From Dehalococcoidia bacterium (GTDB taxonomy: Bacteria; Chloroflexota; Dehalococcoidia; DSTF01; JACRBR01), in contig JADMII010000013.1 in NCBI GenBank assembly GCA_015478665.1, positions 1-64,000 on the forward strand: a DNA stretch of 64,000 nucleotides, read 5' to 3'. The notes under the pieces are model-generated. The model was not told the origin of the DNA. It searched no databases and worked only from the letters and a program-made list of their open reading frames with translations. Position 1 is the first letter of the stretch, and every line of letters starts with the position of its first letter. Below, one piece after another: positions 4,929 through 64,000 of this stretch. The position numbers were made by a program, and so were the translations under genes.

Positions 4929-5741
4929 ATGCCCGACTATCGCGACATCCTGTACGAACCGCGCGGCGGCGTCGTGCTGATCACGCTCAACCGGCCGGAA
5001 AAGCTGAACGCCTGGACGCCGACGATGGAGGACGAGTTCATCGACGCCGTGCGCACGGCCTCCGCCGACGCGGCCGTCGGCTGCATCGTCGTCACCGGCG
5101 CCGGCCGTGGATTCTGCGCCGGCGCCGACATCGGCGGCTGGGATCGCAGGCTCCAGGGAGAGGCGCCGCCGCGGCCGTCGAAGATGCTGAACGAGGGCGG
5201 CAGCCCGGAGGTGCCGATCACGCTGGCCCAGGCGAAGCCGGTGATCGCAGCGATCAACGGCGTGTCCGTCGGCGTCGGCCTGACGATGACGCTGGCCTGC
5301 GACATCCGCCTCGCCTCGACGGCCGCGCGCTTCTCGGCGCGCTTCGTGCGCGTCGGCCTGACGCCGGAGTGCGGCAGCACCCGCTACCTGCCGCTGGTCG
5401 CCGGCCTGCCCAACGCGCTCTTCCTCGCCCTCACCGGCCGCATCATCGATGCCGACGAGGGGCTGCAGCGCCGCCTCGTCGACCGGCTCGTCGCGCCCAC
5501 TGAGCTGATGCCGACGGCGCTCAAGCTGGCAGAGGAGATCGCCGCCAACCCCCATGAGGCGGTGTGGGCGGCGAAGCGCATGCTGCACGCCAACGCGAGC
5601 GAGCAGGACATCCGCCGCGTCGTGACGCTCGAGAGCTATTCGATCCGCGAGCGGCAGACGGAGCCGGACCATCGCGAGGCGGTGACGGCGTTCATGGAGA
5701 AGCGCGAGCCGCGCTTCAACGCGCGCCAGACCGCCCCCTGA
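4929..5741 (+). CDS. Enoyl-CoA hydratase/isomerase family protein
   Basis: Crotonase-fold enzyme acting on acyl-CoA thioesters, probably hydrating 2-enoyl-CoA in fatty-acid or aromatic-acid oxidation. 270 residues. It shows the NRPEKLNAW opening, GRGFCAGADIGG (first oxyanion-hole strand), AINGVSVGVGLTM (second), and GLTPECGSTRYLP containing the first catalytic Glu position; DADEGLQRRLVD follows. The start ATG at 4929 has a strong GAGGAGG site at 4914-4920. Exact substrate cannot be told. Other CoA genes are in the window but not adjacent. Confidence 0.9.
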   Translation: MPDYRDILYEPRGGVVLITLNRPEKLNAWTPTMEDEFIDAVRTASADAAVGCIVVTGAGRGFCAGADIGGWDRRLQGEAPPRPSKMLNEGGSPEVPITLAQAKPVIAAINGVSVGVGLTMTLACDIRLASTAARFSARFVRVGLTPECGSTRYLPLVAGLPNALFLALTGRIIDADEGLQRRLVDRLVAPTELMPTALKLAEEIAANPHEAVWAAKRMLHANASEQDIRRVVTLESYSIRERQTEPDHREAVTAFMEKREPRFNARQTAP

Positions 5742-59646: not shown

Positions 59647-59875
59647 GCGTGGAATCCCTTCTCGCTGCGATCTGGCGCCGCCCTGCGAACCGTCGCTTCA
59701 GGATAACGTGCGAGCGGCCGACCATCTGCTTGCCCGCGAAGCCGTACGCGGGTTGCAGCCGCGGCATAATCCCGACGCCTCGCGTGCGGGCGCTTCGCTA
59801 TACTGAGCCGGTAGATACGGCACGGACGTTATGTCGATCGCGCCGTCGCGCGGTCGCGCAGGGACACGCACCACG

Positions 59876-60733
59876 ATGCACGTGATCAGGGCACGCGAGC
59901 TGGGGTTCTGCATGGGCGTCCGCCGCGCCGTCGAGATGATGGAGGCAGCGGCCGGGGAGCTGGGCCCGATCACCAGCCTCGGCTCAACCGTGCACAACCC
60001 ACAGGTCGTCGAACGGCTGCGCGGGCACGGCGTCGACGTCATCGCCACGCTCGAGCAGGCGGACGCGCGGCCGGTGGCGATCACGGCCCACGGCGTCGGC
60101 CCGCAGGTGCTCCGCGAGCTGGAAGCGCGCGGCGCGAGCGTCGTCGACACCACCTGCCCCATCGTGACACGCGCGCAGCAGTGGGCGAAGAAGCTGTCCG
60201 ACGAGGGGTTCGGGGTGATCGTCTACGGCGACCCCGAACACAAGGAGGTGCGCGGCATCCTCGGCTGGACCAACGGCAAGATGCTGACGATGCAGCACGA
60301 GTCCGAGCTCGATGCGCCGCTGCCCGCCTGGATGCCCTCGCGCGTCGGTGTGCTCTCGCAGACGACGGAGACGGAAGCGCACTTCGCCCGCTTCGTGCAG
60401 AGGCTGCTCGTCACACACATGGAGCGCATCAGCGAGCTGCGCGTGATCAACACGCTCTGCAACGCGACGACGAGCCAGCAGGCGGCGACGGAAGAGCTGG
60501 CGCAGCACGTCGACCTCATGCTGGTCGTCGGCGGCCGCGAGAGCGCGAACACCTGCCACCTGGCGGACGTGGCGCGCGAGCACGGCGTCGAGACACATCA
60601 CGTCGAGTCGGCGTATGAGCTCGATGCGGCATGGCTCGCCGGGCGCGAGCGCGTCGGCGTGGCCGCCGGGGCATCGACGCCGGACGCAGTGATCGATGAC
60701 GTCGTCGCCCGCCTGCACGAGCTGGCACCGTAG
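59876..60733 (+). CDS. ispH: 4-hydroxy-3-methylbut-2-enyl diphosphate reductase
   Basis: Last enzyme of the MEP isoprenoid pathway; reduces HMBPP to IPP and DMAPP using a 4Fe-4S cluster. Three ligand Cys are present: ELGFCMGVRRAV (residue 12), VDTTCPIVTRA (about 96) and NTLCNATTSQQAA (about 197). Catalytic Glu is in DPEHKEVRG. 285 residues from ATG 59876, which puts the first Cys at residue 12 as in E. coli; the in-frame ATG at 59831 would add 15 residues. TATACT at 59799-59804 is a likely promoter. Encoded next to DUF512. Confidence 0.94.
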   Translation: MHVIRARELGFCMGVRRAVEMMEAAAGELGPITSLGSTVHNPQVVERLRGHGVDVIATLEQADARPVAITAHGVGPQVLRELEARGASVVDTTCPIVTRAQQWAKKLSDEGFGVIVYGDPEHKEVRGILGWTNGKMLTMQHESELDAPLPAWMPSRVGVLSQTTETEAHFARFVQRLLVTHMERISELRVINTLCNATTSQQAATEELAQHVDLMLVVGGRESANTCHLADVAREHGVETHHVESAYELDAAWLAGRERVGVAAGASTPDAVIDDVVARLHELAP

Positions 60734-60836: not shown

Positions 60837-62309
60837 ATGACTGAAGCACGACGCACGCCCAGCTTGCGACGACCGAACGAAGGCGGCGTCATCGATGCCG
60901 TGCGCCCGGGCAGCATCGCCGACGGCGCCGGCCTGCGCGTCGGCGATCGCATCCGGAAGATCGATGGGCGCGTGCTCCGCGATGCCGTCGACTTCCAGTT
61001 CCTGGCCGCCGAGGACGTGATCGAGCTCGAGGTCGTGCGCGGCGACGCACGGATGCGCATCGAGGTCGCGAAGCACCCCGACGAAGACCTCGGCGTCGGC
61101 TTCCAGGACGCCGCGTTCGACGGCGTGCGGACGTGCAACAACGCCTGCTTCTTCTGCTTCCTCAAAGGCAATCCGAAGGGGCTGCGGAAGACGCTCTACG
61201 TGAAGGACGACGACTATCGCCTCAGCTTCTTCCACGGCAACTTCGTGACGCTGACGAACCTGACGGACGACGACTGGCGCCGGCTCGGCGAGCAGCGGCT
61301 GTCGCCGCTGAACGTCTCCGTCCACGCGACGGAGCCGGCCCTCCGCCGCTATCTGCTCGGCAACGCCGGCGCGCCGGACATCTGCGAGCAGCTGCGGCGC
61401 CTCGGCGCGATGGGCATCCAGGCGAACACGCAGATCGTGCTCTGCCCCGGCGTCAACGACGGCGCCGCCCTCGAACGCAGCATCGCCGACCTCACGGCGC
61501 TGTACCCGACGGTGCAGAACATCTCGATCGTGCCGGTGGGGGCGACGATGACGGCGGAGGAACGCATCCTCCGCGGCGCCCACGCCGACGAGGTCGATGC
61601 CTGCACGCCGGAATTCGCCCGCGGCGTCATCGCCCAGGTGCGGCCGTGGCAACGGCGGGTTCGGCGCGAGCACGGGCGCACCGGCGTCTATCTCGCGGAC
61701 GAGTACTATCTCGCCGCCGGCGCGCAGCCGCCCGCGGCCGCCGCCTACGACGGCTTCCCCCAGTTCGAGAACGGCATCGGCATGGTGCGCTCGCTGGTCG
61801 AGGACTGGCGCCGGGCCAGCCGGGCGTACGGACGACGCGGCGAGCGGCCCGCCCGGGGCAGCGTGCGCCGGCTGACGTTCGTGAGTGCGACGCTGGTCGC
61901 GCCGCTGCTCGCGCGCCTCGCCACCGAACTCGGCGAGCTGACCGGCATCGGCACGCGCGTCGAGCCGGTGAAGAACGAGTTCTTCGGGCCGCGGGTCAAC
62001 GTGTCGGGGTTGCTCACATCCCGGGACATCATCGCGCAACTGCGGGGTCAGGACCTCGGCGACCTCGTCGTGCTGCCACGCTACGCGCTCGACTACACCG
62101 GCGGCCGCTTCCTGGACGACGGCACGCCCGCTGAGGTCGGGCGGGCGCTGGGGGCGCCGCTGGCGTTCGCATCGACGCTGCGCGACGTGTTGCAAATCGT
62201 CGGCGAGCCGGTAGAATCGGACGTGGTTGGTGCCGTGCCCAGCGCGACGAGCACGAACGGCAAGGCGTGGGTGGACTACGACGCGCCCGGGCGTGTCGGC
62301 TGCCCCTGA
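60837..62309 (+). CDS. DUF512 protein (PDZ plus radical-SAM-like FeS domain)
   Basis: 490 residues. An N-terminal PDZ-like segment (GVIDAVRPGSIADGAGLRVG) precedes a radical-SAM-like core with CNNACFFCF, a CxxxCxxC cluster ligand set, and then the DUF512 region (FGPRVNVSGLLTSRDII). Function is not established; the family is widespread in Chloroflexota, Firmicutes and cyanobacteria, often beside der. It lies 104 bases downstream of ispH and 52 bases before the glmS ribozyme. Confidence 0.9.
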   Translation: MTEARRTPSLRRPNEGGVIDAVRPGSIADGAGLRVGDRIRKIDGRVLRDAVDFQFLAAEDVIELEVVRGDARMRIEVAKHPDEDLGVGFQDAAFDGVRTCNNACFFCFLKGNPKGLRKTLYVKDDDYRLSFFHGNFVTLTNLTDDDWRRLGEQRLSPLNVSVHATEPALRRYLLGNAGAPDICEQLRRLGAMGIQANTQIVLCPGVNDGAALERSIADLTALYPTVQNISIVPVGATMTAEERILRGAHADEVDACTPEFARGVIAQVRPWQRRVRREHGRTGVYLADEYYLAAGAQPPAAAAYDGFPQFENGIGMVRSLVEDWRRASRAYGRRGERPARGSVRRLTFVSATLVAPLLARLATELGELTGIGTRVEPVKNEFFGPRVNVSGLLTSRDIIAQLRGQDLGDLVVLPRYALDYTGGRFLDDGTPAEVGRALGAPLAFASTLRDVLQIVGEPVESDVVGAVPSATSTNGKAWVDYDAPGRVGCP

Positions 62310-62360
62310 GGCGCGGCCCGGAGAGGGAGGTGCGCGACAGGCGAAGAGTCCGGAGCATAG
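62310..62360. other. Short spacer before the glmS ribozyme
   Basis: Fifty-one bases, purine-rich. No clear -35/-10 pair is seen, so the glmS leader may start here or be co-transcribed with DUF512. Confidence 0.35.
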
Positions 62361-62504
62361 AGAAGAAGCGCCAGGCCCGGGTGCGGCGCGCGCCCGGGTG
62401 ACGAGGAAGAGGCCGATCGAACAACTCGGCGGATGGCCTCTCGGCAGCACAGTCGATATGGACGGAGCAAACCGCGGCGCGCGAGCACCCGACAGAGGCC
62501 GTCC
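62361..62504 (+). ncRNA. glmS self-cleaving ribozyme (glucosamine-6-phosphate riboswitch)
   Basis: Catalytic RNA in the glmS leader that cuts itself when glucosamine-6-phosphate binds, lowering GlmS synthesis. Cleavage site: A67/G68 of AAGCGCCAGG (62366-62375). P1: CCCGGG (62376-62381) with CCCGGG (62393-62398), extended by a wobble and two further pairs. Core TGACGAGGA (62399-62407). P2: AGAGGCC (62408-62414) with GGCCTCT (62435-62441), enclosing the invariant ATCGA (62416-62420) and TCGGCGGATG (62426-62435). P3: CGGC (62442-62445) with GTCG (62452-62455). P4: GGACGG (62460-62465) with CCGTCC (62499-62504), enclosing AAACC and CAGAGG. All conserved blocks are in order; glmS follows. Confidence 0.93.
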
Positions 62505-62637
62505 AGCGTGCATCGAAGCGGAGACGCAAGCGCCGCTTCCGGATCCACCTGCTCCCCCTCTTCGCAGACCCACACTGGGATCGCCACCCCGCGCCAGGCG
62601 GCGCCGGGGCGTTCGCCCGTACGGGCAGGGAGTCTGC
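62505..62637. other. Leader between ribozyme and the small ORF
   Basis: About 130 bases without a supported gene. A GCCC-GTAC-GGGC palindrome (about 62615-62626) lies just before the ribosome site of the 40-codon ORF. Confidence 0.4.
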
Positions 62638-62760
62638 ATGGACAGCACATACATCCGGCACCCGCATCGCCGACGCGATGATGCGGCGGCAACCCCCGCG
62701 CGCCTACCCTCGATCCCGGCAGGCGTCGCCTCGCCGGATGCAGAGCGGGGGGTGCGCTGA
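62638..62760 (+). CDS. 40-codon upstream ORF overlapping the glmS start
   Basis: ATG at 62638 with AGGGAG five bases upstream. The product starts MDSTYIRHPHRRRDDAAATP and ends in ERGVR, and its stop TGA shares a base with the glmS ATG (TGATG at 62758-62762). It may couple translation of glmS to this ORF. The peptide has no recognised motif, so the act of translation rather than the peptide may matter. Alternative: chance ORF in a GC-rich leader. Confidence 0.4.
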   Translation: MDSTYIRHPHRRRDDAAATPARLPSIPAGVASPDAERGVR

Positions 62761-64000
62761 TGTGCGGGATCATCGGCTATACGGGTGAACGCGATGCGGC
62801 GCCGCTGCTGCTCGCTGGGCTGCAGCGGCTGGAATATCGCGGCTACGACAGCGCCGGCATCGCCGTCCTCGATGACGGCGAGATCGCCGTCGTCAAGGGC
62901 GCCGGCAAGCTCTCGGCGCTCCGCGACGGGCTCGAGGGCGCCTACCCTCCAGGCCGCTGCGGCATCGGGCACACCCGCTGGGCGACGCACGGCAAGCCGA
63001 CGACGGATAACGCCCACCCGCACCTCGACTGCAGCGGCGCCATCGTCGTCATCCACAACGGCATCGTCGAGAATTACCTCGAGTTGCGCGCGGAGCTGAA
63101 GGCGCACGGCCACGACCTGCGTTCGGAGACCGACACGGAAGTGATCCCGCATCTCATCGAAGCGCGGATGGACGCCGGCGACGACCTGCTCACCGCGCTG
63201 CGGCAGACGCTCGTGCGCATCCGCGGCGCGCACGCGATCGTCGCCATGTCGAAGCGCGAGGCCGGCCGGATCGTGGCGGCGCGCGCGGGCAACGCAGGCG
63301 GCGTCGTCATCGGCTACGGCGACGGCGAGATGTTCGTCTCGAGCGACCTGCCGGCGCTGCTCACGGAGACGCAGCGCGTGGCCTTCCTCTCCGACGGCGA
63401 GATCGCCAGCATCACCGCGTCGAGCGTGCAGTACGTCAGCTCCGCCGGCGATCGCATCGCCGACAAGCAGCCGCAGGTCGTGCCGTTCGACCCCGTCTCG
63501 GCGGCGAAGGGCGCCCACAAGCACTTCATGCTCAAGGAGATTATGGAGCAGCCGGAGTGCATCATGGACACCTTCCGCGGGCGCGCCATCTTCGACCCGC
63601 CCGGCGTTGCGCTCGAATCGATCGGCCTCGCGGACGACGTGCTGCGGCGCGTCTCGCGCGTCGTGCTGATCGGCATGGGGACGAGCATGCACGCGGCGAT
63701 GCTCGGCCGCACGTACTTCGAGCGGATCGCCGGCATCCCGGCGGAGGTCGACAACTCGTCGGAGTTCCGCTACCGCCGCGCGCTGATCGGGCCGGATACG
63801 CTCGTCGTCTCCGTCGCGCAGTCCGGCGAGACGGTCGACACACTGGAGGCGATGGCCGACGCGCAGCGCCGCCGGGCGCCGCAGCTGACGATCTGCAACA
63901 CACCGGGGGCGCAGTCGACGCGCATCGCCGACGGCGTGGTGCTGACGCGCTGCGGGCCGGAAGTCGCCGTCGCGAGCACGAAGACGCTGACCGCATCGAT
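62760..64000 (+). CDS. glmS: Glutamine-fructose-6-phosphate aminotransferase, N-terminal two thirds (runs off the window)
   Basis: Makes glucosamine-6-phosphate from fructose-6-phosphate and glutamine, the first step towards UDP-GlcNAc and peptidoglycan. ATG is at 62760, so the catalytic Cys directly follows Met as required (MCGIIGYTGERDAA). The glutaminase domain shows LEYRGYDSAG, GIGHTRWATHG and VIHNGIVENY. The isomerase (SIS) domain begins near residue 240 (KHFMLKEIMEQP) and shows GMGTSMHA and SVAQSGETVDT. About 413 codons lie in the window and the C-terminus is beyond the right edge. A GGGGGG stretch 7-8 bases upstream can act as ribosome site. Controlled by the ribozyme at 62361. Confidence 0.97.
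   Translation, partial: MCGIIGYTGERDAAPLLLAGLQRLEYRGYDSAGIAVLDDGEIAVVKGAGKLSALRDGLEGAYPPGRCGIGHTRWATHGKPTTDNAHPHLDCSGAIVVIHNGIVENYLELRAELKAHGHDLRSETDTEVIPHLIEARMDAGDDLLTALRQTLVRIRGAHAIVAMSKREAGRIVAARAGNAGGVVIGYGDGEMFVSSDLPALLTETQRVAFLSDGEIASITASSVQYVSSAGDRIADKQPQVVPFDPVSAAKGAHKHFMLKEIMEQPECIMDTFRGRAIFDPPGVALESIGLADDVLRRVSRVVLIGMGTSMHAAMLGRTYFERIAGIPAEVDNSSEFRYRRALIGPDTLVVSVAQSGETVDTLEAMADAQRRRAPQLTICNTPGAQSTRIADGVVLTRCGPEVAVASTKTLTAS

Follow-up and report, generated by a model that had tools for sequence, protein, structure and literature searches.

Genomic context of the glmS ribozyme

The 64-kb stretch of DNA analysed here (the window) ends inside glmS, a gene of cell-wall sugar synthesis that is preceded on the same strand by ispH, a DUF512-type gene, a structured RNA and a candidate leader open reading frame (ORF; Table 1). 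Both strands of the window were searched with cmscan against 4227 Rfam families, revealing the glmS ribozyme (RF00234) as the sole match exceeding any family's cut-off, with a score of 75.2 bits (cut-off 37), an E-value of 1.9e-15 and coverage of model positions 1–167 of 167. A first-pass annotation of the locus, which had proposed a glmS ribozyme, expected just such a strong covariance-model match. No second RF00234 copy was found in the genome, which comprises 2.67 Mb in 66 contigs and has a completeness of 98.9%. The "real glmS" that the annotation placed downstream is borne out by a TIGR01135 match and a full-length product of 614 aa in the contig, and the closest relatives of this GlmS are all from Chloroflexota, the lineage that had been suggested.

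The ribozyme had also been described as lying directly upstream of glmS. In fact, 244 nt separate the end of the RF00234 match from the glmS ATG, and this gap contains a 40-codon ORF. A short ORF with a GGAG-like site upstream was present before glmS in all seven members of the window's family, f1 (window, L087–L091 and L107), with a stop codon overlapping or abutting the glmS start (TGATG, TAGATG or TGACATG). The predicted peptides range from 20 to 65 aa and are not conserved in sequence. Agreement of the ORF and glmS frames in all seven would arise by chance at about 3^-7, before allowing for start-codon choice, and the arrangement is what translational coupling to glmS would look like.

Table 1. 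Coordinates of genes, ribozyme elements and leader features in the window
Feature	Position	Strand	Evidence and remarks
ispH (lytB)	59831..60733	+	TIGR00216, 267.8 bits
PDZ/radical SAM protein gene (DUF512 type, TIGR03279-like)	60837..62309	+	Gene end lies 58 nt 5' of the cleavage site
RF00234 full match	62356..62515	+	Functional RNA 62367–62511
Predicted cleavage site, A(-1)/G(+1)	62367..62368	+	RF00234 alignment; G invariant, A nearly so, in 42 homologues
P2.2 5' strand, CGCC	62369..62372	+	Pairs with GGCG 62428–62431; 4/4 pairs invariant in 42 sequences
P1 hairpin, at most 10 pairs, 5-nt loop	62375..62399	+	Two-sided changes in 5/7 counted pairs
Core GACGAGGA	62400..62407	+	GACGAGG invariant or nearly so
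P2.1 5' strand, CGA	62402..62404	+	Pairs with TCG 62417–62419
P2, AGAGG 62408–62412 / CCTCT 62437–62441	62408..62441	+	100% paired; two-sided changes in 4/5 pairs
ATCGA with P2.1 3' strand TCG 62417–62419	62416..62420	+	97.6% paired in 42 sequences
TCGGCGGATG with P2.2 3' strand GGCG 62428–62431	62426..62435	+	Homologue alignment, covariation
P3 hairpin, 4 pairs; loop contains GCAC 62447–62450 (P3.1 5' strand)	62442..62455	+	99.4% paired
P4 with internal loop IL4 and GNRA tetraloop	62460..62504	+	Two-sided changes in 10/11 counted pairs
P3.1 3' strand, GTGC	62508..62511	+	Pairs with 62447–62450; 97% paired; 4 sequences carry a double change from C-G to U-A
Candidate hairpin, GCAGAC 62564–62569 / GTCTGC 62632–62637	62564..62637	+	Just 5' of the leader ORF; both strands in 4/7 leaders
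Candidate leader ORF, 40 aa	62638..62760	+	GGGAG before ATG; stop TGA overlaps the glmS start (TGATG)
glmS, glutamine--fructose-6-phosphate transaminase	62760..64000	+	Continues beyond the window end; TIGR01135, 477.5 bits on the in-window part

Anatomy of the ribozyme

The RNA was numbered after the T. tengcongensis core (PMC7125110) and B. subtilis (PMC11602151). All diagnostic parts of the class were found: the cleavage site, P1, the P2.1/P2.2 double pseudoknot, the catalytic G, the P3/P3.1 pseudoknot, and P4 with its GNRA loop and receptor. Every element listed in the first-pass annotation is present at the position it gave, and the RF00234 alignment agrees with its placement of cleavage between 62367 and 62368. 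The extent it assigned (62361–62504) falls short at the 3' end: the 3' strand of P3.1 had been overlooked, and the RNA therefore extends to 62511.

G62406 is the counterpart of the catalytic G of B. subtilis, G42 in the numbering of PMC11602151, and is invariant in the homologues. The P4 tetraloop is GCGA (62481–62484), with the G and A of the GNRA motif invariant in the 42 homologues, as is C62377–G62397, the P1 receptor pair for this loop. Internal loop IL4 comprises AAA at 62469–62471, invariant in the homologues, facing A62494, G62495 and A62496. The GNRA loop, the P1 receptor pair and the IL4 adenines are all required in B. subtilis, where substitutions at receptor G33 or its partner A128 are not tolerated (PMC11602151). 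All three are retained in the window RNA with one IL4 adenine changed to G: the middle adenine on the 3' side is G62495, at the site equivalent to B. subtilis A140, and the A140G variant of the B. subtilis ribozyme stays active and is less heat-stable (PMC11602151).

The suggestion that this RNA is a compact, GC-adapted version of the class did not survive comparison with its relatives. Its P1 region, taken as the nucleotides separating A6 from GACGAGG, has a length of 26 nt compared with 16–54 nt in 49 Chloroflexota homologues, placing P1 as middling to long and ruling out special compactness. P3 has 4 bp and a 6-nt loop, as in relatives, and the G+C content of the ribozyme (0.72) follows that of the window (0.707).

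Conservation and covariation

A covariation alignment of 42 Chloroflexota homologues was examined. The proposed pairs were formed in 95.8% of cells, a figure that fell to 80.1% in shuffles and did not exceed 39.8% when partners were slid, and 21 of the 38 pairs showed two-sided changes. The covariation score was 0.445, against 0.153 in shuffles and no more than 0.094 for slid partners. P3.1 covaries in relatives, with double changes in one pair. Since P2.2 never varies and P2.1 almost never does, covariation gives the core pseudoknots no support. The core motifs themselves are invariant or nearly so across the 42 homologues, in keeping with the conservation in related genomes that the first-pass annotation had called for. 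In the 49 Chloroflexota loci first examined, glmS lies downstream in every case, at 60 to 331 nt. With an RF00234 score at twice the cut-off, a TIGR01135 glmS downstream, and covariation and core conservation in the homologues, the class assignment is confirmed, and the window RNA is a genuine glmS ribozyme, ordinary rather than unusual.

Distribution and descent

The glmS ribozyme class is best known from Firmicutes. In the window's order, an RF00234 match was present in 14 of 18 genomes, belonging to families f1, f2 and f4; no match was found in either f3 genome or in two further members of the order whose assemblies are less complete. At the level of the class, 48 of 393 genomes had a match, and those beyond the order all belong to family f36. 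A Tepidiforma genome (L018) also has a match, and the GlmS row from this genome agrees exactly with that of one f36 member, which assigns the window to the class that contains Tepidiforma. Among 400 Chloroflexota genomes sampled, 124 (about a third) had a match, 110 of them above the cut-off. The ribozyme is thus common in the phylum, contrary to the rarity that the first-pass annotation implied. In the parts of the literature that our search reached, no report of glmS ribozymes in Chloroflexota or Chloroflexi was found, although earlier ones may exist.

The descent of the ribozyme was examined on a tree of 86 GlmS sequences, labelled only for Rfam-scored rows because a regular-expression proxy for the ribozyme proved too noisy. 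The ribozyme label needs 8 changes on this tree, compared with 22.7 when shuffled, and ribozyme-bearing rows cluster, indicating a largely vertical descent with some losses or gains. The window RNA adds one further well-supported member of the class, from an uncultured Chloroflexota order.

Proposed mechanism and alternative explanations

With the structure, conservation, gene context and presence of an RNase J gene established here, the locus as a whole is very probably a glmS ribozyme-riboswitch in the glmS leader, in which glucosamine-6-phosphate (GlcN6P) would trigger cleavage followed by decay; ligand, cleavage and decay are assigned by analogy with the class. The nascent RNA would fold into P1–P4, the double pseudoknot P2.1/P2.2 and P3.1. 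When abundant, GlcN6P, the product of GlmS, would occupy the preformed pocket and serve as the general acid, promoting together with G62406 the cleavage of the A62367/G62368 bond. The glmS mRNA on the 3' side, now bearing a 5'-OH, would be degraded by RNase J, so that the product of GlmS would shut down glmS. In B. subtilis, the 5'-OH cleavage product is degraded by RNase J1 (PMC3997798), and the genome studied here encodes an RNase J, as identified by a match to its C-terminal domain (PF17770, E 8.4e-30).

The genes upstream invite a different emphasis. Each of the seven f1 members has a DUF512-type gene 5' of the ribozyme, and in family f4 ispH is the immediate upstream neighbour of the RNA; counting either gene, 12 genomes of the order have one a short distance upstream of their ribozyme. 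Scans for sigma-70-like promoter or terminator patterns near the ribozyme found none, consensus promoter scans being of little weight in a genome of this kind. As ispH and the DUF512-type gene are codirectional with glmS and no such pattern separates them from the ribozyme, the RNA may sit inside an operon. On a polycistronic ispH-DUF512-glmS transcript, the main consequence of GlcN6P-dependent cleavage might be to divide the operon and define the 3' end of its upstream portion, and translational coupling with the leader ORF would additionally set glmS output. This would fit the codirectional DUF512-type gene stopping just 58 nt 5' of the cleavage site, and the contact between leader ORF stop and glmS start throughout the family; the promoter scans on which it partly draws are weak, however, and the mechanism of the class, in which the 5'-OH fragment decays, requires none of it. 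We consider operon splitting as the main function unlikely.

It is far less probable that the RNA is a folded, catalytically dead relic retained for another reason, such as leader structure. A stable competing fold is predicted, in which the 5' strand of P1 pairs with the P4 region: nested energy models gave it -70.2 kcal/mol compared with -51.4 kcal/mol for the native nested helices alone, a gap of 19 kcal/mol, in a calculation that omits the three pseudoknots and the order of transcription, single-sequence folding being uninformative for a pseudoknotted RNA. Such a fold would matter mainly for in vitro refolding protocols. Against a relic, all catalytic and ligand-site nucleotides checked are intact and invariant across the alignment. 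Chance resemblance in G+C-rich sequence, to which helices made almost entirely of G-C pairs and a fold energy only modestly below that of shuffles (z -1.83) might point, has a negligible probability and is rejected because of the RF00234 score and E-value, the homologues that precede glmS in the order and in other relatives, and their covariation, the match being besides the only one above cut-off in the window and the only RF00234 copy in the genome.

Relatives in Anaerolineae

The interest of the window RNA lies mainly in what its relatives show. Nearly all glmS ribozymes reportedly precede glmS, according to the 2011 survey of McCown, Roth and Breaker, which is also said to describe extra core stems in members from Deinococcus-Thermus. 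Some Anaerolineae genomes contain two or more RF00234 matches. At 13 distinct loci (families f133, f163, f165, f166, f170 and f104), an RF00234 match directly precedes the glutamine synthetase gene glnA; glnA-preceding RNAs with a position 4 of P2.2 other than C were noted in L130, L132, L134, L137, L138:395-602, L146, L148, L164, L165, L172–L176 and L182. In five f104 genomes (L209, L210, L211, L212 and L214), the glnA-type RNA heads a conserved stretch of an araC/ada-like gene, an EamA transporter gene and glnA. Further glmS-ribozyme-like RNAs were observed upstream of glutamate synthase genes (L215 and L218, the latter RNA degenerate and lacking GACGAGG), before a gene whose product is a large FAD/Fe-S protein that matches Glu_synthase more weakly (L216), and before a DegT aminotransferase and GFO/IDH pair (L217). 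Among the papers our search reached that name glmS ribozymes together with glnA or glutamine synthetase, no report of glnA-linked RNAs is apparent from titles and abstracts.

Two other RNAs were noted at these loci. On L137, a 6S RNA (RF00013, 47.1 bits) at 1298–1473 ends 31 nt 5' of the glnA-type ribozyme on the same strand, and on L138, a T-box-like leader (5155–5373; 68.8 bits, below the cut-off of 93) precedes a threonyl-tRNA synthetase-like ORF.

A model built from the glnA-linked RNAs matched 129 of 199 genomes of that class, and most of the matches examined precede glmS. An alignment of 65 Anaerolineae RNAs showed strong covariation, with 94.1% pairing and two-sided changes in 43 of 52 pairs, the alignment having been fitted to its model, which favours the structure. 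This structure has two extra core stems and a 7-pair helix (A3 columns 4–10 with 404–410) in which nucleotides preceding the cleavage site pair with the segment that follows P3; the helix shows two-sided changes in 7/7 pairs and 89.3% pairing. It would keep the 5' cleavage product anchored.

The glnA-linked RNAs differ in the core. Position 4 of P2.2 is C in 44/44 glmS-linked RNAs (43 called by script, and L198 by eye), and is never C in 18 glnA-linked RNAs (G in 15, A in 1 and U in 2), in which the partner G54 is kept. A bulged position 4 with C5–G54 and U6–A53 pairs can restore pairing in the G and A cases, moving the bulge towards the active site.

We propose, as a reading that could equally well prove wrong, that glmS ribozymes have spread throughout Chloroflexota, with the window RNA at the canonical end of their range, and that in Anaerolineae this fold came to serve nitrogen-assimilation and amino-sugar genes, namely those for glnA, glutamate synthase and DegT aminotransferase. 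The glnA-linked RNAs would be a subclass altered at P2.2 position 4, with an additional helix holding the 5' side of the cleavage site, and the glutamine state would be reported either by GlcN6P or by a different ligand that the changed pocket accepts. If active, the relatives before glnA and glutamate synthase genes would tie a metabolite-driven ribozyme to nitrogen assimilation, and would offer naturally occurring variants with which to study possible changes of the GlcN6P pocket.

Comparison with known glmS ribozymes

The window RNA shares with the RF00234 systems of B. subtilis, B. anthracis and T. tengcongensis the cleavage motif, the core, P1–P4 and P3.1, as well as the GNRA loop and its receptor, the IL4 adenines and the place before glmS. 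It differs from them in its G+C content of 0.72, in the replacement of the middle IL4 adenine by G62495, in the 244 nt that separate it from glmS and contain a candidate coupled leader ORF, and in a position that is probably internal to an operon. The glmS ribozymes of Anaerolineae (L131–L208) have the same core and the same position before glmS as the window RNA. By contrast, their core contains two additional stems, and the helix described above joins nucleotides upstream of the cut to the post-P3 stretch; none of these features is present in the window RNA.
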